This document shows positions 2,519 to 26,500 of a DNA stretch of 64,000 nt, piece by piece. The translations under genes were made by a program, and so were the position numbers. Source of the stretch: Verrucomicrobium sp. GAS474 (GTDB taxonomy: Bacteria; Verrucomicrobiota; Verrucomicrobiia; Methylacidiphilales; GAS474); the NCBI RefSeq assembly GCF_900105685.1, contig NZ_LT629781.1, forward strand, positions 1,922,001-1,986,000. The letters are read 5' to 3'. The first letter of the stretch is position 1, and each line of letters starts with the position of its first letter. The notes beneath the pieces were generated by a model that had not been told where the DNA came from, did not search any database, and was given only the letters and a program-made list of their open reading frames with translations.

Positions 2519-4537
2519 ATGAATACGCCTGTCATCATCTTCTCGATCTTCGTCACCACCGTCCTCCTCCTCTCCTTCTACCTCGGCAGGAAGGCGAAGT
2601 CGGCCAAGGGCTACTACGCCGCCCACGGCGAGATCCATTGGTTCGTCAACGGCATCGCCTTCGCGGGCGATTACCTCTCCGCCGCCTCGTTCCTCGGCAT
2701 CTGCGGCATGATCGCCCTCTTCGGTTACGACGGGTTCCTCTACTCGATCGGCTTCCTCGCCGGCTGGGTCGTCGCGATCTTCCTGATCGCGGAGCCGATC
2801 AAGCGGCTCGGCAAGTTCACCTTCGCCGACGCGCTCGACTCGAAGTTCAACTCCCGCGGCATCAAGCTCTCCGTCGCCATCGGCACCCTCGTCATCTCGA
2901 TCGCCTACCTCATCCCCCAGATGGTCGGCGCCGGGGCGCTGATCAAGCCCCTCCTCGGCATCGACGACAACTACGGCATCATCATCGTCGGCCTCCTCGT
3001 CACGATCATCGTCACCACCGCCGGGATGGTCTCGACGACCTGGGTCCAGTTCATCAAGGGCTCCCTCCTCGTCTTCTTCTGCCTCATCCTCGTCGGCCTC
3101 ATCCTGGCCCGGGGTCTCAGCGTCCGCGAGCTCGCCACGATCCCGATCCCCGTTCCCGCCGAGGTCGCCGCGCCTGCCGCTCCCGCCGCCGCCCCGGCCG
3201 AGGCCTCGGCTCCCGCCGCTTCCTCCGCCGCGCTCGAACCGACGCCCGTCGTCGACTCGAGCGTCCCGATCGCCCCCCCCGAGCCGGCCGCGCCCGCCGT
3301 CGAGGTTCCCAAGGCGATCACTGCCGGCCCCCTCGCCGGGAAGCCCTACTACGGGCTCTACGACGGCGAGAAGCTCGTCACCCTCTACCGCGTGATCGAC
3401 CTCCCCGGCAAGGGCAAGGCCCTCGTCGAGGTCCAGACCTCGACCGCCTTCCCGAAGGAAAAGGACAAGAAGCCCCTCCCGAACGTCCTCGGCGGCGGCA
3501 AGCCCCTCCACCCGATCAACGGCATCTACTCCCTCCCCGACGGCCAGAAGGAGACCGGCGGCGTCAGCCCCTTCGGCTTCCTCACCACCCTCCAGAAGTC
3601 GATCCTCATCCAGTCGGGCAAGGAAGTGATCAAGGACTTCCCGAACGCGAGCGAGGAGACCACCGTCTTCTTCCCGAAGCTCAACTCGGGCGAGAAGCTC
3701 CTCCAGCCCGGCACCCACCCGAACTTCAAGGGCATCCACTCCCAGAAGCTCGCCGACAAGCTCGACTTCATCTCCTTCATGCTCGCCCTCTTCGCCGGGA
3801 CGGCCTCGCTCCCCCACATCCTCATCCGCTACTACACGGTGAAGGACGCGGCGGCGGCGCGGAAGTCGACCGTCGTCGGCATCGGCGCGATCGGCATCTT
3901 CTACGTCCTCACGCTCTTCCTCGGCCTCGCCGCGCTGAGCTACGGCGTCCTCGACCTCTCCGACGCGGGCGGCAACAAGGCGGCGCCGCTCCTGGCGAAG
4001 TCGTTCTCCCCGCTCCTCTTCGCCTTCATCTCGGCGATCGCCTTCACCACCGTGCTGGGGACCGTCTCCGGCCTCATCCTGGCCGGTTCCGGCGCCGTGG
4101 CGCACGACCTGATCGAGAACGTCCTGAAGATCCCGATGAGCGACCACCAGAAGGTCTTCGCGGGGAAGATGGCCGCCATCGTCCTCGGCATCATCGCCAT
4201 GGTCCTCGGCATCGCGTTCAAGCAGATCAACGTCTCCCTCATGGTCGCCTGGGCCTTCAACATCGCCGCCTCGGCCAACCTCCCCTCGCTCCTGATGCTC
4301 CTCTTCTGGAAGAAGACGACGAAGCAGGGCATCACCGCCGCCGTCACCGTCGGCACGCTGACCTCGGTCGGCTGGATCCTGATCTCGGACAAGGTCGTGA
4401 AGGAAGTCTACAAGATGGACCCCTTCTCCAACCTGCCGATGAACTACCCGGCCCTCGTCACCGTCCCCCTCGGCTTCCTCATCCTGATCGTCGTCTCGCT
4501 CCTCACCCAGCCGAAGGCGAAGGCCGACCTCGACTAA
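2519..4537 (+). CDS. Sodium:solute symporter, acetate-permease (ActP) type, with large central insertion
   Basis: An inner-membrane transporter of the SSS family, predicted to import acetate or another short carboxylate with Na+. The first about 200 residues contain the family helices, including [16 protein letters not shown], and the remaining helices resume near residue 415 ([17 protein letters not shown]). Between them sits an insertion of roughly 190 residues: an Ala/Pro-rich stretch (about 215-265) followed by a polar, Lys/Gly-rich segment. ActP is about 550 residues; this protein has 672. The insert contains no evident membrane helix, so it should form a loop. The DUF485 partner immediately upstream supports the ActP-like assignment. 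The substrate is not proven. Confidence 0.85.
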
Positions 4538-4565
4538 CCGCCCCGGCCTCCCCCGGGACCGCCCC

Positions 4566-6002
4566 ATGCGGCTGACACGACATCTCACCCTCGGCCTCGG
4601 CTCCCGCAATGGAGCCGGGGAGGGGGATTCCGAGTCCCTCGGCAAGACCGTCGCCGACCTCGCGGGGAACCTCGGCCTCCAGCTCGCCGACATCACCGGG
4701 GCCGTCGAGACGATCAGCGCCGCCGCCGTCGAGCAGGCCGCCGCCTTCACCCAGCTGAAGGCCGAGAACACCCGGATGGCCGAGGCGACGCGGGAGATCA
4801 CCGAGGCGGCCACCGAGGCCCGCACGGTGGCGACCGCCTCCGAGTCCCGGATGAACGAGTCCCGCGCCGTCCTCGACGGGGCCGTCACCTCGATCGCCGG
4901 GCTGATGGAATCGATCGAGGGCGTCCGGGCCGGGGCCGACCACCTCGGCGCCGCCCTCCAGAACGTCGGCAAGACCGCCGCCAGCATCGAGGGGATCGCC
5001 CTCCAGACCCGCCTCCTCGCCCTCAACGCCTCGGTCGAGGCGGCCCGCGCGGGCGCGGCGGGGAGGGGCTTCGCCGTCGTCGCCGACGAGGTCCGGACCC
5101 TCGCCCTCCGGAGCTCCGAGGCCGCTGTCCTCATGAGCCGGACCCTCTCCACGCTGACCGAGGAGGTGCACCGCCTCCTGGAGAGCGCCTCCCAGGGCAT
5201 CGCCCGCGCCGAGACGGCGAGCCGGGAGACCGCGGAACTCCGCCAGACCGTCACCGCGGTCGGCGAGGCCCTTTCGGGCGTCGGCGGGCGGACCCGCCGC
5301 ATCGCCGACGTCGCCGAGACCGTCGAGCAGAACATCCGCCACCACATCGGGATGGTCGACGGCCTCTCCGCCCGCATCGGGGAGGAGAGCGAGAGCCTCG
5401 AGCAGGCCCGCGACCGGCTCCGCGACGTCGTCGGCTTTTCGGAGCGCCTCGTCTCGACCATCGTCGACAGCGGCGTCGAGACGCGGGACACCCCTTTCAT
5501 CCGCCTCGTTCAGGACGGCGCGCGGAAGATCGGCCACCTCTTCGAAGAGGCGCTCGCCCACGGGGAGATCGCCGAGGCCGACCTTTTCAGCGACCGCTAC
5601 GAGCCGATCCCCCGGACGAACCCCGCGCAGTTCCTCACCCCCTACGTCACCCTCACCGACCGCCTCCTCCCGGCCCTCCAGGAAAAGATCGCGGCGACCC
5701 ACGAGCGGATCGCCTTCTGCGCCGCCGTCGACCGGAACGGCTTCCTCCCGACGCACAACGCGAAGTTCTCCCAGCCCCAGGGGGCCGACCCGGCCTGGAA
5801 CGCCGCCCATTGCCGCAACCGCCGCCTCTTCAACGATCGCGTCGGCCTCGCCTCCGGGCGCAACGTCCGCTCCTTCCTCCTCCAGCACTATCGCCGCGAC
5901 ATGGGCGGCGGCCAGTTCGTCCTCATGAACGACGTCTCCGCGCCGATCACCGTCCGGGGACGCCACTGGGGCGGCCTCCGCATGGGATACCGGGCGGAAT
6001 AG
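4566..6002 (+). CDS. Soluble methyl-accepting chemotaxis protein with C-terminal sensor domain
   Basis: A 478-residue protein without any membrane segment. Residues about 30-290 form the helical MCP signalling region. The hairpin tip ([20 protein letters not shown], then [10 protein letters not shown]) is near residue 160 and would contact CheA/CheW. The C-terminal about 150 residues form a separate domain ending in [20 protein letters not shown], a pattern typical of the sensor end of some cytosolic MCPs (Cache/PAS-like fold inferred). The sensor follows the signalling helices rather than preceding them, and nothing anchors the protein in the membrane. It probably senses an intracellular ligand or redox state. 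No other chemotaxis gene is in the window. Confidence 0.85.
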
Positions 6003-6052
6003 GTCCGGGCCTTGATCCTTGATATCGCGCCGTCTTGGGCGAGAGTATCGGG

Positions 6053-6373
6053 ATGAAATGGGTCTATCTCGCCTTGGCGATCGGGTTTGAAATCGCCGGC
6101 ACCACCTGCATGAAGCTCTCCGACGGCTTCAGCAACCTGAAATGGGCGGCCCTCATGGCCCTCTTCTACTCGGGCTGCTTCATCTTCCTCACGTTCACCG
6201 TGAAGCGGATGGAGGTCAGCCTTGCCTATGCCATCTGGAGCGGCGTCGGCGTCGCCCTCCTCTCCTGCATCGGCATCTTCTTCTTCAAGGAGAGCTTCAA
6301 CGCGATGAAGCTCTTCGGCCTCGTCGCGATCATCGTCGGCGTCGTCGCCCTCCGCCTCAGCGGGGCGAAGTAG
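6053..6373 (+). CDS. Small multidrug resistance (SMR) family transporter
   Basis: A 106-residue protein with four hydrophobic helices and the essential membrane glutamate at residue 13 in the context FEIAGTTCMKLSDG. This is an SMR proton-coupled exporter, which works as a dimer. The ATG at 6053 gives the normal SMR length. A TTG 18 bases upstream would add six residues and is less likely. The sequence could belong to the quaternary-amine (EmrE) or guanidinium (Gdx/SugE) branch; this cannot be decided here. Its last 17 bases overlap, tail to tail, the end of the SGNH-like gene on the other strand. Confidence 0.88.
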   Translation: MKWVYLALAIGFEIAGTTCMKLSDGFSNLKWAALMALFYSGCFIFLTFTVKRMEVSLAYAIWSGVGVALLSCIGIFFFKESFNAMKLFGLVAIIVGVVALRLSGAK

Positions 6374-7391
6374 GGACGGGCGCTTTCTTCAGGGATTCCC
6401 TCAGCCCCTCGGCCAGCCGCTCCGTGGCCACGCTCCGGCTCCCGGCCGTGAGGTGGTGGGCGTCGAAGTAGAGGAGCCCCTCCGGGGCGATCGAGAGAAA
6501 CGGAACGGCATCGGCGGGCAGGCGGGCCAGCTCGGCCCCGGGGAACGGGAGGAGGATGTAGAAGAACCGGGCCTGGGGGAAAGACTCGGCGGGGACTGCG
6601 ACGCGTTGGGCGACGTGGTAATTCGGCTCGTTGCCGAAGCAGGGCTCGCTCTGCGCCGGATGGCCCTCTCCCGACAGGGAATAGAGCAGCGTCTCCCGCG
6701 CCCACGCCCATTCCATGTCGTTTGTTTCCCAGTTCCGGGACTGGGCGGCGAGGAGGAAATGGCGGCGGTAAAAGAAGTAGGGCGGAGCGGTCAGCTTACC
6801 CGTCTGTTTCAGATAAAGGCGGGGGAGGAAGCGGTCGAAGAAATAATCCTGATAGAAGCTGAGCCAGACGTTTTCCACGCTCCAGCAGGCTTCCAGAAGG
6901 GAGATCGAGGACGAAGCGGGTTCCGGCTGGGGATGAATGTTCCACCCGAAGAGATCAAGGATCACCGTCTTTCCCGCCGCATGGGAGTCGAGGAAGTTGC
7001 GGTTGAAGCTTACGTCATCCCCCGTCATCGAGGCATTGAAGCACCGGACGGGCGCACCCGCGGAGGCGGAGAGCTCTTGGCCCAGTTCCCGGGCCGAGAG
7101 CCCGAAGGCGGGGTGCGAGGTGCCGACGAGGAGGAGGTCGGCCGCATCGATCTTCTTTCCGAAACCGAGGAGGCCCGAGTGGAGGAGGTAGAAGGCGGCG
7201 GAATGACGGCTCGCTCCTCCGGCATACTCGGAGACGTAGGCCTGCCCGGGAACGGGAAGGGGAGGGAGCGGAGTGAGCGCGGGCCGGGCCAGGGCGAAGG
7301 CGAGGAAGAGGACCGCCGCCGTCCCGAGGAACGCCGCGACGAAGGGGAGGCGGAAGGCGGTCGGCTCAGGAGGGGAGGGTCGCGGGTCCAT
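6357..7391 (-). CDS. SGNH-like membrane-anchored protein, partner of MBOAT acyltransferase
   Basis: 344 residues. One N-terminal membrane helix (about residues 15-37) is followed by an extracytoplasmic domain. LLLVGTSHPAFG near residue 88 resembles the nucleophile loop of SGNH/AlgJ-AlgX-type proteins, and FDAHHLTAGS near residue 310 resembles their Asp-x-x-His block. It lies 4 bases after the MBOAT gene in the same direction. MBOAT/SGNH pairs transfer acyl groups to exopolysaccharides or wall polymers: the MBOAT moves the acyl group across the membrane and the SGNH protein attaches it. The polymer modified is unknown. The SGNH assignment rests on motif spacing and neighbourhood. Confidence 0.7.
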   Translation of the reverse strand: MDPRPSPPEPTAFRLPFVAAFLGTAAVLFLAFALARPALTPLPPLPVPGQAYVSEYAGGASRHSAAFYLLHSGLLGFGKKIDAADLLLVGTSHPAFGLSARELGQELSASAGAPVRCFNASMTGDDVSFNRNFLDSHAAGKTVILDLFGWNIHPQPEPASSSISLLEACWSVENVWLSFYQDYFFDRFLPRLYLKQTGKLTAPPYFFYRRHFLLAAQSRNWETNDMEWAWARETLLYSLSGEGHPAQSEPCFGNEPNYHVAQRVAVPAESFPQARFFYILLPFPGAELARLPADAVPFLSIAPEGLLYFDAHHLTAGSRSVATERLAEGLRESLKKAPVPTSPR

Positions 7392-7395
7392 GGCG

Positions 7396-8802
7396 TCAGA
7401 AGAGGAAATAGATGAATCCCTTCGCCGGAGAATAGACGATGCAGTTCAGGACGAACAGGACGCCGGTGACAATGCCGAGCGCGAGGCCGAGGCGGCGTCG
7501 CCCGACCCGCTTCAGGAAGAACGGCGCGCCGTGGTGGGCCACGATGGCGAGGGCCGGGAGAAGGGCGAGGAGGGGTCGGTTGCGGACAAACCAGAACGGG
7601 TGCGGGGGATGGAACGCGGGTGCGAGGGTAAGCATCGGACGGGCGAAATCCCACGCTTGCGCGAGGGAAGGGCAGCGGAAGAAGACCCAGGCGAAAACCA
7701 CCCAAAGCTGCGCCGCCGCCCATCCGCCCCAGCGGAAGGAGGGCGAGGCGGCCATCCCGTCCCGGTGGAAGAACCGTTCCGCGACCAACCCCGCCCCGTG
7801 CATCAGCCCCCAGAGGGCGAAGCCCCATCCGGCCCCATGCCAGAGGCCGCAGAGAAAGAAGGCGAAGAGGAGATTGAAGGCGGCCCGGGGTGCGGAGCAG
7901 CGGTTTCCGCCGAGGGGGATGTAGAGATAATCGCGGATCCAGCGGGAGAGGGTGATGTGCCACCGCTGCCAGAATTCCCGCAGGCTGGCGGCGAGCATCG
8001 GCGTCCGGAAATTCGGCGGCAGGCGGTAGCCGAGCATCCGTGCCATGCCGAGGGCCATGAGGCTGTATCCGGCGAAGTCGCCGTAGATTTGGCAATAATA
8101 GAGGAAGGCGACCAGCCAGTGTTCCAGGCAAGTCAGGTCGAACGGAGGAGGCGTCCCCCCGTCGGCCCAGTAGGGATCGATCGCCTGGGCGATATTGTTC
8201 GCCCCGACACATTTCAGGAAGACCCCGACGACGACGAAATGGAACCCCATGAAGAGATCGTTCCGGACGCGGCGGGTGACGCCGATCTGGGGGACGAGCT
8301 GCCAGGCCCGGACGATCGGCCCGGCGATGACGTGAGGGAAGAAGCTGAGGTAAAAGAGATATTGCCGGAACGTCGCCACCCGGACCCGTCCCGCATGGAT
8401 ATCGACGAGGTAGCTGATGAGGTGAAAGACGTAGAAGGAGATCGCGAGCGGGATGCCGAGCGGGAAGGAAGGGAATTCGAGCGGCGAGATCGCCGCCAGC
8501 GTGGTGCCGAGGAAGTTGGCATATTTGAAAAGGGCGAGCGTCGCGAGGTCGAGGCCGATCGTCCCGATCAGCAGCCGCTTCGCCGCCGGAGGGGAGAGCC
8601 GGGGCAGGAGGCGGGCCGAGACGAAGTTCACCGCCAACACCCCGAGGAAAAGGGCGAGATCGTACCATCCCCACGTCGCGATCACCAGGAGGCTGAAGAC
8701 GATCAGGAACCATTCCTTCAACGCAGGCCACGGACGGAGGAGGAACGTCACCCCGCAGACCGCCGCGAACAGGTAGAGGAATCCGATGTCGGTGTAGAGC
8801 AT
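7396..8802 (-). CDS. MBOAT family O-acyltransferase (AlgI/DltB type)
   Basis: A polytopic inner-membrane acyltransferase. The ATG at 8802 is chosen as start because the protein then begins MLYTDIGFLYLF, the usual AlgI-type start; a TTG at 8850 would add 16 residues and run into the lexA promoter region. Family landmarks are FWQRWHITLSRW and LCGLWHGAGWGFALWG, which holds the putative catalytic histidine. It is divergent from lexA with 69 bases between starts and is followed after 4 bases by the SGNH-like gene. The two probably O-acylate a secreted polysaccharide. No alginate or cellulose synthesis genes are in view, so the acceptor is open. Confidence 0.9.
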   Translation of the reverse strand: MLYTDIGFLYLFAAVCGVTFLLRPWPALKEWFLIVFSLLVIATWGWYDLALFLGVLAVNFVSARLLPRLSPPAAKRLLIGTIGLDLATLALFKYANFLGTTLAAISPLEFPSFPLGIPLAISFYVFHLISYLVDIHAGRVRVATFRQYLFYLSFFPHVIAGPIVRAWQLVPQIGVTRRVRNDLFMGFHFVVVGVFLKCVGANNIAQAIDPYWADGGTPPPFDLTCLEHWLVAFLYYCQIYGDFAGYSLMALGMARMLGYRLPPNFRTPMLAASLREFWQRWHITLSRWIRDYLYIPLGGNRCSAPRAAFNLLFAFFLCGLWHGAGWGFALWGLMHGAGLVAERFFHRDGMAASPSFRWGGWAAAQLWVVFAWVFFRCPSLAQAWDFARPMLTLAPAFHPPHPFWFVRNRPLLALLPALAIVAHHGAPFFLKRVGRRRLGLALGIVTGVLFVLNCIVYSPAKGFIYFLF

Positions 8803-8837
8803 GGGCGGAGAGACGAGGGAATCCCAAAAGAGCTTGA

Positions 8838-8865
8838 TTGACAACCGCAAAGGTTATTATACACT
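8838..8865 (+). promoter_or_regulatory. Candidate lexA promoter with internal inverted repeat
   Basis: TTGACA (8838-8843), 16 bases, then TACACT (8860-8865). The inverted repeat AACC-GCAAA-GGTT (8843-8855) lies between the two elements, where a repressor such as LexA itself could block RNA polymerase. The predicted transcription start falls on or next to the ATG at 8872, so that start would be nearly leaderless. Confidence 0.4.
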
Positions 8866-8871
8866 CGTATC

Positions 8872-9555
8872 ATGGTCTTTAATCCCGAGTCGTCGTCGAT
8901 GCCTGCGCCGGTCTTCACCCTCACCGGGTCCCAGCAGAAGGTTCTCGAATTCATCGAGAAGTACAGCGAGACCAACCATCGCCCGCCGACGATCCGGGAA
9001 ATCCAGCGCCATTGCGGCTTCGCCAGCCCCCGCGCCGTCTCCTACATCGTGGAGAAGCTCGAGGCGGCCCAGGTCCTCCTCCGGGAAGCCCGCTCCCGGG
9101 GCCTTTTCTCGACCCGCCGCCCGACGGTCCGCGCCCAGGGTTCCCCCGAGGCGTTCCAGCTCCCGCTCTTCGATTCGATTCCCGCCGGTTTCGCCGATCC
9201 GATCGAGGGCGGGAGCGAGGTCGAGGCCCCCGCCTCCCTTTCCTTCATCCCCAGCACCCTCGGCGTCTCCGATCCCGCCCGCGCCTTCGCGGTGAAGGTG
9301 AAGGGGGAGAGCATGATCGGCGCGGGGATCTTCGACGGCGACGTCGTCGTCCTCGAGCGGAAGCCTGCCGCCCCCGGCGATATCGTCGCTGCCTTGATCG
9401 ACGGCGAGTGCACCCTGAAGCGCCTCCACCAGCGCCGGGGGGCCTATTACCTTCAGGCGGAGAACCCCGCCTATCCCGATCTCGAGCCGGTCGAAGAACT
9501 CAGCGTCCAAGGCGTCGTCGTCGGCGTCCTGCGACGCTACGCGAACGCAGCGTGA
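8872..9555 (+). CDS. lexA: LexA-family SOS repressor (S24 autopeptidase)
   Basis: 227 residues. The N-terminal winged helix (TLTGSQQKVLEFIEKY through about residue 80) includes the recognition-helix region RPPTIREIQRHCGF. The C-terminal half is an S24 self-cleaving peptidase. The Ala-Gly cleavage pair appears in SIPAGFAD near residue 106, the catalytic Ser in KGESMIGAG and the catalytic Lys in CTLKRL. RecA-stimulated cleavage between that Ala and Gly would relieve repression. The ATG at 8899 gives MPAPVFTLTG, closer to typical LexA starts, so the first nine residues may not be translated. It is divergent from the MBOAT gene. A phage-type repressor is possible, but no phage genes are nearby. 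Confidence 0.88.
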   Translation: MVFNPESSSMPAPVFTLTGSQQKVLEFIEKYSETNHRPPTIREIQRHCGFASPRAVSYIVEKLEAAQVLLREARSRGLFSTRRPTVRAQGSPEAFQLPLFDSIPAGFADPIEGGSEVEAPASLSFIPSTLGVSDPARAFAVKVKGESMIGAGIFDGDVVVLERKPAAPGDIVAALIDGECTLKRLHQRRGAYYLQAENPAYPDLEPVEELSVQGVVVGVLRRYANAA

Positions 9556-9693
9556 TTTTCCCAATAGGAGTCAGGGCGTATTGGCCCCGTCTTATAGCAC
9601 GTACCCTCGGGCGCTCCAGGAAGCAGCGGATTTTATCCAGTTAAGAGACGAGACGCCGCCAAAGCGCGTCCGCCTAGTTCAGGCCCTTAGAGC

Positions 9694-9760
9694 AGGAGGT
9701 TCCAGGAGGGGCAAAGCCCCTCTTGGGCTATAAAGCGGATCGCCTCCAGCTGTACAGGGT
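9694..9760 (-). repeat. Dispersed repeat, short copy C (reverse orientation)
   Basis: On the minus strand this segment matches the core of the two longer copies at 26517-26726 and 62046-62256. It shares the palindrome AGAGGGGC-TTT-GCCCCTCC and the flanking CCCTGTACAGCTGGAGGC block. Only about 67 bases are recognisable and the outer parts have diverged or are absent. Confidence 0.7.
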
Positions 9761-9905
9761 TGACCGCGCCAGCCCCGACGGGCCGCCCCGCCCACCAAAC
9801 ATCCGCGAACGCGGCGTAACCAGCATCGCCCGCATCCGTCGCGCCATGGAAATGAGGCCCCTCCTCCCGCCCTCCATTCAAGAATCGCCTCCGGCCTTGA
9901 CGCCG

Positions 9906-9926
9906 CCTTGTCCCGACGGGACAAGG
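9906..9926. promoter_or_regulatory. Perfect 9-bp inverted repeat upstream of mcsB
   Basis: CCTTGTCCC-GAC-GGGACAAGG lies 28 bases before the mcsB start. It has no T-run, so it is not a classical terminator. It matches neither the CIRCE element nor the CtsR tandem site. An operator or a 5'-leader hairpin for the mcsB-clpC operon is possible. Confidence 0.4.
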
Positions 9927-9954
9927 TGGAATTGCCCATTGCCAAGGGCCGGAA

Positions 9955-11100
9955 ATGTCTTACCGTACGGGGGTAGTGAAGATCGCCAATTTACTCCAGA
10001 CCAGCAGCGAGTGGTTGCATGGGGATAGCGGTGGCGCCGGGAACAAGGTAGTGCTTTGCACCCGTGTCCGGCTCGCCCGCAATCTCAACCACCACCCGTT
10101 TCCCGGCTGGGCGAAGAAGGCGGAGCGCGAGCGGATCCTCTCCATCATCCAACCCGCCGTCCTCTCCCTCCCCGAGATGGGCCAGGCGATCGTCTGCGAT
10201 TCGATGGACCATTTCTCCCCGCTCGAAAAGCAGGTCCTCGTCGAGCAGCACCTCATCAGCCGCGAGCACGCCGCGAAGAGCGCCGGCAGCGGCCTCGCGG
10301 TGAACAAGCCCCGCACCCTTTCCGTCATGATCAACGAGGAAGACCACCTCCGCCTCCAGGTCTTCCGCGCCGGGCTCCAGCTGAAGGGCCTCTGGAAGAT
10401 GGCCGACAAGATCGACGGCGAGCTCGACGAGCGGCTCGACTTCGCCTTCTCCCCCCAGATCGGCTATCTCACCGCCTGCCCGACGAACGTCGGCACCGGG
10501 ATGCGCGCCTCGGTCATGATGCACCTCCCGGCCCTCGTGCTGAAGGAGCAGATCGGCCAGATCATCAAGGCGGTGAACCGCATCGGCCTCGCCGTCCGCG
10601 GCCTCTACGGGGAGGGGACCGAGGCCCTCGGCAACCTCTTCCAGGTCTCGAACCAGATGACCCTCGGCGAGAGCGAGACGGCGATCATCGAGCGCCTCCA
10701 GAAGGTGATCTCGCAGATCATCGACCACGAGGAGAACGCCCGCGTCACGCTGCTGCAGGAAAAGGCCCGCGTCGTCGCCGACCAGGTCGGCCGCGCCTAC
10801 GGGATCATGCGCCATTCCTACGCCATGTCGTCGAAGGAGGCGTTGAACCTCCTCTCCCTCCTCCGCTTCGGGGCCGACCTCGGGATGTTCCCCGAGTCGT
10901 GCCGCATGGCGATCGACGAGTGCTTCATCAAGACGCAGCCCGCCCACCTCCAGCTCGATTACGACCGGAAGCTGACCACCGAGGAGCGCGACGGCATCCG
11001 TTCCGATTTCCTCCGCGAGCATTTGAAGGACGTCCCGGCGCCCGACTGCGCCAAGCTCGGCACCTCCACCCCCCCTTCCACCGAAGAAAGCCAATCATGA
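9955..11100 (+). CDS. mcsB: Protein arginine kinase McsB (ATP:guanido phosphotransferase family)
   Basis: 381 residues, the normal length. McsB phosphorylates arginines on proteins and marks them for ClpC degradation in Firmicutes. The guanidino-kinase signature CPTNVGTGMRAS is at residues 175-186 with the catalytic Cys175. The N-terminal nucleotide-binding block reads TRVRLARN near residue 36, and the C-terminal arginine-rich region is also present. The ATG at 9955 is preceded by AAGGG with 6-base spacing. The stop overlaps the clpC start (ATGA), so the two are translationally coupled. The Firmicutes partners CtsR and McsA are not beside it. The enzyme's activity in this lineage is inferred from family membership. 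Confidence 0.93.
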   Translation: MSYRTGVVKIANLLQTSSEWLHGDSGGAGNKVVLCTRVRLARNLNHHPFPGWAKKAERERILSIIQPAVLSLPEMGQAIVCDSMDHFSPLEKQVLVEQHLISREHAAKSAGSGLAVNKPRTLSVMINEEDHLRLQVFRAGLQLKGLWKMADKIDGELDERLDFAFSPQIGYLTACPTNVGTGMRASVMMHLPALVLKEQIGQIIKAVNRIGLAVRGLYGEGTEALGNLFQVSNQMTLGESETAIIERLQKVISQIIDHEENARVTLLQEKARVVADQVGRAYGIMRHSYAMSSKEALNLLSLLRFGADLGMFPESCRMAIDECFIKTQPAHLQLDYDRKLTTEERDGIRSDFLREHLKDVPAPDCAKLGTSTPPSTEESQS

Positions 11101-13691
11101 ATAACTTCACCCCCCGCGCCCAGCAGGTCCTTTCCCTCGCCCGGAAGGAGGCCGACCGTTTCAACCACAACTACGTGGGGACGGAGCACCTCCTCCTCGG
11201 CCTCATCAAGCTCGGCCAGGGTGTCGCCGTCAACGTCCTCCAGAAGATGGGCGTCGACCTCGACACCGTCCGCAACGAGGTGGAAAAGCAGGTCGGCACC
11301 GGCCCCGAATCGAAGGTCTCCGGGAACATCCCCTACACGCCCCGCGTGAAGAAGGTCCTCGCCCTCGCGGGCAAGGAAGCGAAGGCGCTCAACCACAGCT
11401 ACGTCGGCACGGAGCACATCCTCCTCGGCCTCCTGCGCGAGGGGGAGGGCGTCGCCGCCCGCGTCCTCAAGAGCCTCGAGATCGACCTCGAGCGCGCCCG
11501 CAACGAGATCCTGAAGGAACTCGACCCGAACTTCACCGCCCCCGAGTCGGGCGCGGGCCAGGGCGGCGGCGAGGAGGAGCCGGGCGAGGGCGCCACGGCG
11601 GGCGGCCCCGAGACGGGCGGCAAGAAGGAGGTCAAGACTCCCGCGCTGAAGTCGTTCGGTCGCGACCTCACCGAGGTCGCCCGCAAGGGCGAGCTCGACC
11701 CCGTCATCGGGCGGTCGAGCGAGATCGAGCGGGTCATCCAGATCCTCTGCCGCCGCACGAAGAACAACCCCGTCCTCATCGGCGAGGCCGGCGTCGGCAA
11801 GACCGCCATCGTCGAGGGCCTGGCCCAGGAAATCGCCGCCGGGAACGTCCCCGAGCTCCTTCGCGAGAAGAAGGTCATCACCCTCGACCTCGCCCTGATG
11901 GTCGCGGGAACGAAGTATCGCGGCCAGTTCGAGGAACGGATCAAGGCCGTCATGGAGGAGATCCGCAAGGCGAAGAACGTCCTCCTCTTCATCGACGAGC
12001 TCCACACCATCGTCGGCGCCGGCTCGGCCGAGGGCGCGATGGACGCGTCGAACATCATCAAGCCCGCCCTCTCCCGCGGCGAGCTCCAGTGCATCGGCGC
12101 GACGACCCTCACCGAATACCGGAAATACATCGAGAAGGACTCGGCCCTCGAGCGCCGCTTCCAGACCGTCACCGTCGAGGCTCCCAGCGTCGCCGACACC
12201 GTCCTCATCCTCCAGGGGCTGAAGGTCAAGTATGAGGCCCACCATAAGGCCAAGTACACCGACGACGCGATCACCGCCGCCGCGAAGCTCTCCGACCGCT
12301 ACCTCACGGGCCGCTTCCTCCCCGACAAGGCGATCGACGTCATGGACGAGGCCGGTTCCCGCGCCCGGATCGCCGCCACGATGCGCCCGCCCGACGTGAA
12401 GGACATCGAGACCGAGCTCGGCGAGATCCGCAACCGGAAGGATGCCAGCATCAAGGCCCAGGACTTCGAGAAGGCCGCCGCCCTCCGCGACAAGGAGAAG
12501 GAGGCCAAGGAGAAGCTCGAGGCGATCCTCGCCGAATGGCGCCTGAAGCGGGACGAGCAGGAAGTCTCCGTCACCGAGGACGACATCATGCACATCGTCT
12601 CGAAGTGGACCGGCGTCCCGATCTCCCGCGTCACCCAGAAGGACCGCGAGAAGCTCCTCCAGGTCGCCGACGAGCTCAAGGGCAAGGTCATCGGCCAGGA
12701 CGAGGCCGTCGCCGCCCTCGGCAAGGCCCTGCGCCGTTCCCGCGCCGACCTCAAGGACCCGAAGCGTCCCATCGGCTCCTTCGTCTTCCTCGGGCCGACC
12801 GGCGTCGGCAAGACGATGCTGGTGAAGACTCTCGCCGAGCACATGTTCGGCAGTTCGGACGCCCTGATCCAGATCGACATGTCGGAATACATGGAGAAGT
12901 TCAACGTCTCCCGCCTCATCGGCTCGCCTCCCGGCTACGTCGGCTACGAGGAAGGCGGCCAGCTGACGGAACGGGTCCGCCGCCGTCCCTACAGCGTCGT
13001 CCTCTTCGACGAGATCGAGAAGGGCCATCCCGACGTCTGGAACATCCTGCTCCAGATCCTCGAGGACGGCATCGTGACCGACAGTCTCGGCCGGAAGATC
13101 GATTTCCGGAACACGATCATCATCATGACCTCGAACGTCGGGGCCGACACCGGCTTCAACAAGGGTTCCCTCGGCTTCACCGCCAGCAAGGACGAGGCCA
13201 CGTATGACCAGATGAAGGAGCGGATGCTCGAGCAGATGAAGAAGACCTTCAAGCCCGAGTTCCTCAACCGCCTCGACGACCTCATCGTCTTCCGCTCGCT
13301 GAACAAGGCCGACATGGTCAAGATCGTCGAGCTCGAGGTCGGCAAGGTCTCGACCCGCCTGGAGAGCCGCCAGCTCAAGCTGAAGCTCACCCAGGAGGCG
13401 ACCGACTTCCTCATCGAGAAGGGCTACGATCCCGCCTACGGCGCCCGGCCCCTGCGCCGCGCCGTCGAGCGTTACCTCGAAGACCCCCTCGCCGAGGAAC
13501 TCCTCCGTGGGAACATCAAGGAATCGCAGACCGTCGAGGTCTCCTTCAAGCCGAAGGAAATCGCCGCCGAGGCGGTGCAGCGCCGCGACGCCCGCGAGAA
13601 GGACGCGAAGGAAGGCGAGTTGGTCTTCCATCCGATCGACGATCCGGCCCCGGCCTCGACGGAAACGCCGACGACGCCTTCCTCGTCCTGA
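11097..13691 (+). CDS. clpC: ATP-dependent Clp protease ATP-binding subunit ClpC
   Basis: A Hsp100 unfoldase that feeds substrates to ClpP, 864 residues. Two Clp_N repeats occupy residues about 1-145 (each with NHxYVGTEHxLLGL). The first AAA+ domain has Walker A GEAGVGKT near residue 230, and a UVR-type coiled motif lies near 445-480 ([13 protein letters not shown]). The second AAA+ domain has GPTGVGKT near residue 567 and [13 protein letters not shown]. The small C-terminal domain follows, with a short disordered tail. The UVR motif separates ClpC from ClpA/ClpB. It starts inside the mcsB stop, which suggests that phosphoarginine-tagged proteins are its substrates. A strong terminator follows. 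Confidence 0.95.
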
Positions 13692-23393: not shown

Positions 23394-23852
23394 ATGTTGA
23401 TTAGTGACCTACTAAAAACAGGGCAGGTCAACCTTCAGTTGAAAAGCACCGATGGGACGGGTGCGATTAAGGAAGTCGCCGAACTTCTCCGGGACAATCC
23501 CGCCGTCACCTCTTTCGACGGGTTTTACGAGGAGCTGGAGGCCCGCGAACGGGTCGAGACCACCTGCCTCGGCAACGGCATCGCCTTCCCCCACGCGCGG
23601 ACCGACCACATCAAGACGATGGTCCTCGCGGTCGGCCGCAGCGTCGAAGGGATCCACTTCAAGAGCTGCAATCAGATCGTCCACCTCCTCTTCACCATCG
23701 GGACCCCCAAACGGATGGCGACCGACTACCTCAGCGTCGTCGGCGGCCTCGCCCGCATCCTGAAGGACCCGAAGCTCCGCGAAGCCCTGATGAGCGCGAC
23801 CCAGACTTCCGAGTTCGTCGCGATCATCGCCGCCGCCGAGAAGAAAGTCTAA
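23394..23852 (+). CDS. PTS EIIA-type (PtsN-like) phosphocarrier protein
   Basis: 152 residues spanning one PTS fructose/mannitol-type EIIA domain. The phosphorylatable histidine is in IAFPHARTDHI near residue 64, preceded by RERVETTCLGNG. There is no sugar permease nearby, and as a single-domain protein it fits the regulatory nitrogen-PTS role (PtsN) rather than sugar uptake. The upstream 113 bases contain a TTGACA at 23285 but no convincing -10. The downstream dipeptidase begins 15 bases later and may share the transcript. Confidence 0.85.
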   Translation: MLISDLLKTGQVNLQLKSTDGTGAIKEVAELLRDNPAVTSFDGFYEELEARERVETTCLGNGIAFPHARTDHIKTMVLAVGRSVEGIHFKSCNQIVHLLFTIGTPKRMATDYLSVVGGLARILKDPKLREALMSATQTSEFVAIIAAAEKKV

Positions 23853-23867
23853 GGAAGCCTCCCGGAC

Positions 23868-24644
23868 GTGCCCGCCCTCCGTCCGCTTTCCTTCCCGGGC
23901 CTTTCCGCCGTCTCCGCCTTCCTCCTCCTCGTCGTCGGTTTTTTTCTTCCGCTTTCCGCGCCGGGTGCCGAACTGAAGCCGAGGCTCCACATCCTTTCCG
24001 ATCCCGCCGATTACCGGGCCGAGGTCCGGGCCGATCCCTCCCGGCGGCTCGTCGACCTTCGTGAGGCGATCCCCGGCCTCGCCGTCGACCTCCGCTACGC
24101 CACCGAGCGTAACTTCCTCCACGCCATCCTTTACGACGCGGATCGCCCCCTCCTGCGCGCCCCCGCCGCCGCCCGCCTGCGGGAGGTCGAGGACGATCTG
24201 CGGGGCGAGGGCCTCGGGCTGGTGATTTACGACGCCTACCGCCCCTACGCCGTCACCCGCCGGATGTGGCAGGAGCAGTCGGCCCGCTATGCCCTCTACC
24301 TCTCCCCGCCTTCGCTCGGGTCGGACCATAACCGGGGGGTCGCCGTCGACGTCGGGCTGGTCGACCTGAAGTCGGCGAAACGGCTCCCCATGCCGACCGA
24401 TTTCGACGCCTTCACCCCGAAGGCGGCCCACGCCTGGCCTGCCGCGAGGCTCTCCGACGCCGAGGCGGCGAACCGGGCGCGGCTGTTGGCGACGATGACG
24501 CGGCACGGCTTCCACCCCTACGAGGGGGAGTGGTGGCACTACGCCCTGAACGGGGCGAAGGACTACAGCGTCCTCGACCTCCCGCTCTCGACCTTCGAGA
24601 AGGGAGCCGGGATTGCCAAAGCGCCCGAAAAGGCGGCAAAATAA
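23868..24644 (+). CDS. Secreted D-alanyl-D-alanine dipeptidase (VanX/DdpX family)
   Basis: 258 residues with a GTG start and AAGGAAG ribosome site. An N-terminal hydrophobic segment (about residues 10-32) is a signal peptide or anchor. The metallopeptidase core has YDAYRPYAVTRRMW near residue 120, the zinc motif SDHNRGVAVDVG (SxHxxGxAxD) near residue 148 and EWWHY near residue 222, which carries the catalytic Glu and last zinc His. It cleaves D-Ala-D-Ala released from peptidoglycan. Without vanH/vanA neighbours it is probably for recycling or wall turnover rather than vancomycin resistance. Confidence 0.9.
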   Translation: MPALRPLSFPGLSAVSAFLLLVVGFFLPLSAPGAELKPRLHILSDPADYRAEVRADPSRRLVDLREAIPGLAVDLRYATERNFLHAILYDADRPLLRAPAAARLREVEDDLRGEGLGLVIYDAYRPYAVTRRMWQEQSARYALYLSPPSLGSDHNRGVAVDVGLVDLKSAKRLPMPTDFDAFTPKAAHAWPAARLSDAEAANRARLLATMTRHGFHPYEGEWWHYALNGAKDYSVLDLPLSTFEKGAGIAKAPEKAAK

Positions 24645-24680: not shown

Positions 24681-25115
24681 ATGAATCCCGCTTCCCTTCC
24701 TCCCGTGCGCGTGTTGCTTGCGGAGGACGATACCATCAGCCGGATGGTCGTGGGGAGAATGGCGGAAACGCTGGGCTGCACCTGTACCCAGGTGGGGAAC
24801 GGGCGGGAGGCCCTTGAAGCCCTTGAGGCGACCAAGGTCTGCCCGTCCGGAACCTACGACCTCCTCCTCCTCGACATCGAGATGCCCGAGATGGACGGCA
24901 TCGAGGCCGCCCAGGCCGTGAAGGCCCACTTCGATGCCCATCCGCCCGCCGGAGGGAAACGGCCCCGCGTCGTCGCGTTGACTGGCGACCTCTGCGAAAC
25001 CAAGCTCCGGGAATACCATCGGGCGGGCTTCGACGAGTGCCTCGGCAAGCCGCTGAAGATCGAACGCCTCCAGGCCCTCCTCGATGCCCTCCCCAGGGTC
25101 GTTCCCGCGGAGTGA
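24681..25115 (+). CDS. Single-domain response regulator (CheY-like receiver), canonical
   Basis: 144 residues making up one receiver domain. All active-site residues are present: acidic pair in LLAEDDT (residues 15-17), phospho-acceptor Asp65 in LLLLDIEMPEMDG, Thr in VALTGD and Lys in CLGKPL. There is no output domain. It probably receives phosphate from a histidine kinase or from the HPt domain encoded next door. It is the first of three consecutive receiver genes; the following two have lost the acceptor aspartate. Confidence 0.9.
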   Translation: MNPASLPPVRVLLAEDDTISRMVVGRMAETLGCTCTQVGNGREALEALEATKVCPSGTYDLLLLDIEMPEMDGIEAAQAVKAHFDAHPPAGGKRPRVVALTGDLCETKLREYHRAGFDECLGKPLKIERLQALLDALPRVVPAE

Positions 25116-25154
25116 TTTTCCCTTCCCCCTTTTTCCTTCCTCCGAATTTTCCCC

Positions 25155-25913
25155 ATGCCCACTCCCTCTCCCCGCCCGGCGATCCTGATCGTCGACGGCA
25201 ACGCCCTGAACCGCCGCCTCGCGGAACAGTTCCTCCTCCAGCTCGGCTGCCGCTGCGGCCTCGTTCCCTCCGGGGCCGAGGCGCTGCAGGCCGTCGTCCG
25301 CGAGAAGTGGGACGCGGTCCTGATCGAGCTCACCCTTCCCGACCAGAGCGGGATGGAGATGGCGCGGCGGCTGCGGAAGCAGGTCGACGAGGCGGGCTAT
25401 CCGCTCCCCCGGCTCGTCGCCCTCGCCGACGGCGGCTCCCCCCGGACGCGGGTCCTCTGCCGCCTCGCGGGAATCCGGGAATTCCTCCTGAGGCCGTTGA
25501 CGCTACCCGGGTTGGAGACCGCCCTCGCGCTGAAGCCGGGCGCCGCCGCGGCGGGGCGGACCTGCGATCCCGTCCTGCTCCAGACCCTCGAGGGGCTCCG
25601 CGACATGGCCGGGAAGAAATTCGTCTTCGACCTGATCGAGATCCTCGCCCGGGAGGGGCCGGAGCGGCTCGCCGAGATTGGCGGGATGCTGGCGACGGGG
25701 AACCTCCCCGTCGCGGGACGCCTCTTCCACAAGATGAAGGGGAGCGCCAGCTCCTTCGGGGCTGTCGAGCTCAACCGCATCTGTGAGGTCGGCGACGACG
25801 CCTGCGCCGAGGGGAACGCCGCGCTGGCCCGGGATTGCCACCGGCTGGCCGGGGAGGAACTAGGCGAGCTCGCGGTCATGTTGAAACAGTGGAAGGAAGG
25901 AGAAACGGAATGA
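25155..25913 (+). CDS. Degenerate receiver domain fused to HPt phosphotransfer domain
   Basis: 252 residues. Residues 8-125 fold as a receiver, but the acceptor Asp is replaced by Glu58 (VLIELTLPDQSG), the Thr by Ala91 (VALADGG) and the Lys by Arg113 (LLRPL). It cannot be phosphorylated in the normal way, and Glu may mimic the phosphorylated state. Residues about 140-245 are a helical HPt domain with the phosphorylatable His192 in LFHKMKGSASSFG. The protein could pass phosphate via His192 while its receiver is locked. Its stop overlaps the next gene's start (ATGA), so the two are coupled. Confidence 0.85.
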   Translation: MPTPSPRPAILIVDGNALNRRLAEQFLLQLGCRCGLVPSGAEALQAVVREKWDAVLIELTLPDQSGMEMARRLRKQVDEAGYPLPRLVALADGGSPRTRVLCRLAGIREFLLRPLTLPGLETALALKPGAAAAGRTCDPVLLQTLEGLRDMAGKKFVFDLIEILAREGPERLAEIGGMLATGNLPVAGRLFHKMKGSASSFGAVELNRICEVGDDACAEGNAALARDCHRLAGEELGELAVMLKQWKEGETE

Positions 25914-26500
25914 GGGTCTTGACCGTCGAGGACGATCCGATCGTCCAGCATGTGCTGAAGGGAATCCTGAGCGCGGCGGGCCACCAGGTGGTCGCCGCGA
26001 AGGACGGGAGCGAGGCGCTCCGCCTCTTCCAGGACCACCCCGTCGACCTCGTCATCAGCGCGTGGCAGCTGCCGGGCGGGATCGACGGGATCGAATTGTG
26101 CGAGGCGATCCGCGCCTTCCGCATCTCGCGGTACGTCTATTTCATCCTCGTCAGCTCCGGCTCGATCACCGCCTCCAGCTACGGCGCCGCCGTTGCCCGG
26201 GGGGTAGACGATTTCCTGCCGAAGCCGCTCGACCGGGAGCAGATCCCCGCGCGCATTCTCGTCGCCGAACGGATCATCCGTTCCTTCACCGAACTCCGCG
26301 AGGTGAAGCAGCTCCTCCCCATCTGCATGTATTGCAAGAAGATCCGCGACGACGCGAACTACTGGAACCAGATCGAGACCTACCTCGCCCAGCAGACCGG
26401 ATCGACCTTCTCCCACGGCGTCTGCCCGACCTGCTATGACGCCGTGGTGTTGCCGGAGATCGATCGGGTGCGGACGGGGGATTTGTTTCCGGATGCGTGA
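25910..26500 (+). CDS. Atypical receiver (Asp replaced by Ala) with C-terminal four-cysteine module
   Basis: 196 residues from the ATG at 25910, which overlaps the previous stop. The acidic pocket (VEDDP), a Ser at the Thr position (LVSSG) and Lys105 (LPKPL) remain. The acceptor site reads VISAWQLPG, with Ala51 where ISDW normally has Asp. Residues 139-175 carry CMYCKKIRDD and CPTCYD, a C-x2-C...C-x2-C pattern often found at the ends of PAS/GGDEF/kinase proteins, where it may bind a metal. Phosphorylation-independent signalling is inferred. It may bind the HPt protein encoded upstream. Confidence 0.85.
   Translation: MRVLTVEDDPIVQHVLKGILSAAGHQVVAAKDGSEALRLFQDHPVDLVISAWQLPGGIDGIELCEAIRAFRISRYVYFILVSSGSITASSYGAAVARGVDDFLPKPLDREQIPARILVAERIIRSFTELREVKQLLPICMYCKKIRDDANYWNQIETYLAQQTGSTFSHGVCPTCYDAVVLPEIDRVRTGDLFPDA

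Follow-up and report, generated by a model that had tools for sequence, protein, structure and literature searches.

How can an operon relay a signal when two of its three receiver domains lack the aspartate that accepts phosphate and no histidine kinase lies beside it? The question is raised by a locus of Verrucomicrobium sp. GAS474. The window, that is, the whole stretch of DNA that was analyzed, comprises 64,000 nucleotides (G000:C1:1922001-1986000, where G000 denotes GAS474) of a genome of 3,763,444 bases. Translations and Pfam searches identified three co-directional open reading frames in it as real genes, here named P1, P2, and P3. Response_reg scored above the cut-off in all three and Hpt in P2. 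In window coordinates, the features are as follows:

23868..24644, plus strand: VanX-like D-Ala-D-Ala dipeptidase gene (PF01427), 36 bp upstream of P1
24681..25115, plus strand: P1, free canonical receiver, 144 amino acids (PF00072, E 2.3e-17)
25155..25913, plus strand: P2, pseudo-receiver plus HPt, 252 amino acids (PF00072, PF01627)
25182..25523, plus strand: pseudo-receiver domain of P2 (Pfam span 10-123; Glu58 codon 25326-25328)
25629..25871, plus strand: HPt domain of P2 (Pfam span 159-239; His192 codon 25728-25730)
25910..26500, plus strand: P3, pseudo-receiver plus four-Cys module, 196 amino acids (PF00072, E 2.7e-20; Ala51 codon 26060-26062)
26318..26440, plus strand: four-Cys module of P3 (C-x2-C ... 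H-x2-C-P-x-C; Cys139, Cys142, His169, Cys172, Cys175)

The dipeptidase gene may be a putative operon member at most. Together with a PTS EIIA gene (PF00359), this gene (PF01427) occupies window positions 23394-24644, with short gaps leading into the operon.

An earlier note on this DNA had described the first protein as a canonical receiver, and the translation confirmed every residue of the set (Glu15/Asp16, acceptor Asp65, Thr101, and Lys123). For P2, the note had listed Glu58, Ala91, Arg113, and an HPt with His192. These residues are all present, but Gly15 had been overlooked. The P2 receiver has therefore lost four of five receiver residues (Gly15 at DD2, Glu58 at the acceptor site, Ala91 for Thr, and Arg113 for Lys) and keeps only Asp14. 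The phosphorylatable His192 of its HPt lies in an H-K-M-K-G motif, and His192 and Gly196 were invariant in all six aligned HPts. P3 reads as previously described, with Ala51, a C-x2-C...C-x2-C end, and a start codon that overlaps the P2 stop in the sequence ATGA. Its receiver has lost the acceptor Asp only, retaining Glu7/Asp8, Ser82, and Lys105. Both P2 and P3 are thus pseudo-receivers in the sense of Pfam receivers from which D, T, K, or an acidic residue is absent. Known replacements of the acceptor Asp include Glu (26%) and Ala (9%), and Glu at this site is not in itself “always on” (PMC4395418, in part).

P2 and P3 are two of the five Asp-less receivers among the 101 receivers of GAS474, a fraction in line with the approximately 4 to 6% of receivers that are generally Asp-less or pseudo-receivers (PMC12632262, in part). 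When five Asp-less receivers were placed randomly, a comparable neighbor pair arose in 7% of draws. The clustering alone is therefore not striking and proves little, and we dropped it as evidence (p ~0.07). The conservation of Ala51 in a sister genome, described below, is the better evidence that the change in P3 is evidently real.

The observation that no histidine kinase is adjacent also held, as all 54 HisKA matches of GAS474 lie outside the window. Like a hybrid-kinase phosphorelay (HK-REC-HPt-REC), the operon combines a canonical receiver, an HPt, and a receiver-bearing output protein, and the complete set is present in some P3 relatives. Unlike such a relay, which would supply a kinase and an Asp on the terminal regulator in addition to the intact receiver set found in P1 and the HPt His found in P2, the GAS474 locus has no kinase, and its terminal receiver, P3, has no acceptor Asp. 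P2 and P3 resemble described Asp-less receivers (PMC4395418 and PMC12632262, both in part) in being recognized receivers without phosphotransfer residues. The GAS474 case differs in that a single operon combines two of them with a canonical receiver and an HPt, and in that the loss is polarized by an intact congener. Clostridioides difficile CmrRST likewise has a canonical and an atypical response regulator in one operon, but there the kinase is retained, and the section of the review on this system mentions no HPt (PMC12632262, in part). Both CmrRST regulators belong to the OmpR family. In Caulobacter crescentus PleD, as could be the case here, a phosphorylated receiver acts via contact with a pseudo-receiver; the PleD domains, however, lie in one protein with a cyclase, whereas those of the GAS474 operon lie in separate proteins (PMC12632262, in part).

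The sister genome bin-317 (G002), a MAG that is 82% complete and consists of 590 contigs, carries orthologs of P1, P2, and P3. The dipeptidase gene, which also precedes P1 there (loci L072/L245), P1, and the start of P2 end one contig, and the rest of P2 and P3 begin another. The P1 ortholog is 56% identical, with every receiver residue intact. The P2 ortholog (71%) has Asp at position 58, yet the same Gly15, Ala91, and Arg113, while the P3 ortholog (82%) shares both Ala51 and a one-residue insertion with GAS474. The open reading frames are intact in both species, and both keep P2 and P3 adjacent with the start/stop overlap. Because bin-317 P2 has Asp58 but shares the other three substitutions, Glu58 appears to have come last in P2. 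Being private to GAS474, it would represent a late extra step, DD2, Thr, and Lys having already been lost, and the emphasis that the earlier note placed on the Asp-to-Glu change was misplaced. For Glu58, seen in one genome only, a sequencing error is conceivable, although PacBio sequencing of the GAS474 genome at 178x (PMC5786674) makes it less likely. For Ala51 of P3 we rejected a sequencing error, since the two species use different codons (GCG and GCC) and share the insertion.

We then compared selection on the operon between GAS474 and bin-317. pN/pS was 0.23 for the P3 receiver (85% identical) and 0.16 for the four-Cys core, compared with 0.37 for the P2 HPt, 0.46 for the P2 receiver, 0.45 for the P1 receiver, and 0.38 for the neighboring dipeptidase. 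Among the receivers of the operon, that of P3 is the most constrained, and the four-Cys core is tighter still. Constraint of this strength makes it unlikely that the pseudo-receiver is debris. Ala51, found in both species within a constrained domain, therefore represents a fixed lineage-specific change. In the tree of P3 receivers, the stem leading to GAS474 and bin-317 was long (0.69) and the tips were short (0.08 and 0.14), as expected of a change followed by renewed constraint.

In the congener G001, the third genome examined of this genus, the P2 and P3 genes are neighbors and encode the full set of receiver residues; P1 is missing beside them, and no kinase match lies within 12 kb. Conservation of the trio, which the earlier note had proposed to check, is thus confined to GAS474 and, across two contig ends, bin-317; G001 has the P2-P3 pair, and the trio was found nowhere else among the relatives examined. 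The note had also held that intact Asp at both sites in relatives would suggest local mutation, and G001 shows that arrangement. The two substitutions differ in this respect: Glu58 of P2 is private, whereas Ala51 of P3 is a constrained feature of two species. Elsewhere in the order, a sensor-HK-REC-REC-HPt gene lies directly upstream of P3 in G032. In G007, the stop of an HK-REC-HPt gene, which has a second, degenerate receiver unrecognized by Pfam, overlaps the P3 start. In G045, a free HPt is followed by P3, and an HK-REC-REC gene is divergent on the opposite strand. Nine other P3-clade loci were covered in the order; four of them (G029, G003, G008, and G024) had no HPt or kinase match next to P3. 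Among the best 30 phylum-wide four-Cys loci (L247-L276, 1.5-kb flanks), eight had upstream same-strand kinase, receiver, or HPt matches (L247, L248, L254, L255, and L258-L261), and five had a downstream kinase match (L267 and L269-L272).

To place Ala51 in the P3 family, we assembled 51 sequences, 21 from the genus and order and 30 from the phylum-wide search; the latter are best-scoring loci and hence biased towards P3-like proteins. Four were left out, namely, the duplicate L247 and three without a receiver motif, L268 and L274 (both PAS-like by inspection) and L273. The acceptor Asp, in a DW motif, is kept in 45 of the 47 distinct receiver/four-Cys proteins, and the exceptions, both with Ala, are GAS474 and bin-317. 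P3 itself belongs to this family, having a receiver followed by C-x2-C ... H-x2-CP-x-C. The core of the module (Cys139, Cys142, His169, Cys172, and Cys175) was invariant in all 15 aligned sequences, as were Trp152, Glu156, Tyr158, Phe167, and Pro173, and the Cys/His spacing suggests that the module binds metal. It terminates PAS-like proteins as well as receivers. Of the 288 Verrucomicrobiota genomes sampled, 103 encode it; one viral contig carries it too, and our search did not find it on plasmids. No curated cut-off match was obtained in Pfam or NCBIfam, where scattered zinc-finger-like matches lay below threshold, and comparison with the PDB gave nothing convincing (best E 0.12). The module thus matched neither a curated model nor a solved structure of the known zinc ribbon or treble-clef families. 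In a structural model of P3 built from seven sequences, the receiver fold was confident and the four-Cys module had a pLDDT of ~50; two sequences gave a poor model of P2 (mean 50.3). Neither the operon nor the module is named in the literature found, subscription papers being mostly outside reach, and the module could be proposed as a new domain entry.

Three further loci with this module deserve mention. A second four-Cys locus of GAS474 (L062, G000:C1:1384000-1398000, approximately 7465-11683, minus strand) encodes a histidine kinase, two single receivers, and a receiver/four-Cys protein, with every Asp intact. At a third (L068, G000:C1:2116000-2130000, 4363-7718), the receiver/four-Cys gene begins before its own histidine kinase gene has ended, which is the simple kinase-plus-output form. 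One relative carries a tandem pair of receiver/four-Cys genes (L259, reverse strand, 858-2428), which suggests local duplication of the output protein.

We next considered where the kinase went and where P1 came from. A common sensor, PF21623, is present in the kinases of G032 (two copies), G045, and G001. Protein, profile, and Pfam searches did not find a sensor of this type in GAS474 or bin-317, and the profile did not find it in G007 or G029, so the shared sensor is not universal to P3. Because the positive genomes themselves supplied the profile, it is informative for absences only, and the absence from bin-317 is weak given the incompleteness and fragmentation of that MAG. In a tree of 120 receivers, 98 of them from GAS474, P1 grouped with the terminal receivers of the L277, L278, and G045 kinases (support 0.93) and with none of the other GAS474 receivers; the P2 receiver was placed without support. 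L278 and G045 are HK-REC-REC proteins with the shared sensor, while the sensor of L277 differs. With a grouping supported at 0.93, P1 is most simply a split-off terminal receiver of the HK-REC-REC class, and given that the node joining P1 and L277 alone had a support of 0.59, it could derive from another kinase of the same class. The gain of P1, the loss of the sensor, and the loss of phospho-acceptors fall on one branch only.

The comparison indicates that in several relatives a predicted kinase with one or two receivers, and sometimes its own HPt, adjoins or precedes the P3-family protein. In the GAS474 lineage, by the same comparison, the locus lacks a kinase, a receiver of the apparent terminal-kinase type is free as P1, and the predicted HPt is on P2. 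Based on these sequences, we favor, with moderate confidence, the reading that the operon is a remnant of a hybrid-kinase phosphorelay that was taken apart, with a contact-controlled P3. P1 would be the receiver split off from the kinase, and P2 would supply the HPt. Phosphate would pass between this HPt and P1, and also between it and hybrid kinases encoded at other loci. Neither the P2 nor the P3 receiver would be phosphorylated, and both would act as binding modules. P3, probably an output protein turned pseudo-receiver under purifying selection, would answer through its four-Cys module to contact with P1 or the HPt and not to its own phosphorylation. A relay between P1 and the HPt is plausible, and P3 may well be controlled by contacts, for which PleD and proposals for CmrRST are precedents (PMC12632262, in part). 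The relay proposed in the earlier note thus survives in part: P1 beside an HPt without a kinase fits it, and some P3 relatives in the order are tied to HPts or hybrid kinases, but the intact Asp at both sites in G001 is largely what that note had named as evidence against it. The locus is real, unusual, and explicable as a disassembled phosphorelay with two lineage-specific pseudo-receivers. A more specific version, which we regard as rather unlikely, is that upon kinase loss P1 became the operon's sole phosphate acceptor and P3, instead of being phosphorylated itself, came to sense via its pseudo-receiver which state P1 or the HPt is in, which would amount to a PleD-like pairing made from separate proteins with a widespread, uncatalogued four-Cys output.

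Other readings account for parts of these data. P3 could be locked in one output state that is set by the amount made, with P1 and the P2 HPt forming a separate small relay that shares the operon by chance. Constitutively active, expression-controlled pseudo-receivers are known (PMC12632262, in part), and P3 loses its Asp only, the acidic pair, Ser82, and Lys105 remaining. We nevertheless consider this somewhat unlikely, because the adjacent and overlapping P2 and P3 genes of GAS474 and bin-317 and the adjacency of HPt and P3 in several relatives suggest a shared pathway. That the P2 and P3 receivers are instead degenerating after kinase loss, with nothing phosphorylating them, would agree with the sensor kinase not having been found and with the stepwise loss of four of five residues in P2, Glu58 last. 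Decay is distinctly unlikely, however, for a P3 receiver whose pN/pS lies below that of the dipeptidase, in an operon whose reading frames are intact in both species and whose four-Cys residues and HPt His are kept.

It is also conceivable, but very improbable, that phosphorylation has been replaced as input by metal, redox, or ligand sensing, either in the four-Cys module or in a pseudo-receiver. The four Cys and one His are invariant, and redox and ligand control of pseudo-receivers is known in other systems (PMC12632262, in part). Yet the module is conserved to the same degree in relatives that keep the Asp and in PAS proteins, where it is terminal, which argues against a replacement for phosphorylation, and its predicted structure is of low confidence.

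The switching of bacterial pseudo-receivers has been termed a mystery in a 2025 review (PMC12632262, in part). The GAS474 operon offers a natural example of the rewiring of receiver switches and a polarized case, with two species carrying pseudo-receivers, an intact congener, and a kinase-linked arrangement in several relatives. Swapping parts among the orthologs would provide a direct test of the effect of Asp loss.

Possible partners for the P2 HPt lie elsewhere in the genome. Approximately 25 of the HisKA matches of GAS474 have an in-frame downstream receiver and are thus hybrids. The genome encodes five HPts: CheA (labeled by inspection), P2, another receiver-HPt, an apparently free HPt, and a receiver-HPt with a long N-terminal extension. 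Setting CheA aside, four HPts, P2 among them, are available to the ~25 hybrids. Judged by receiver type only, candidate phosphate sources may include an HK-REC-REC protein (C1:3144977-3146521) and an HK-REC protein (C1:1647405-1648529). A further open frame of 1936 amino acids (G000:C1:2029534-2032044) contains HisKA and several receivers, one of them without Asp and Lys.
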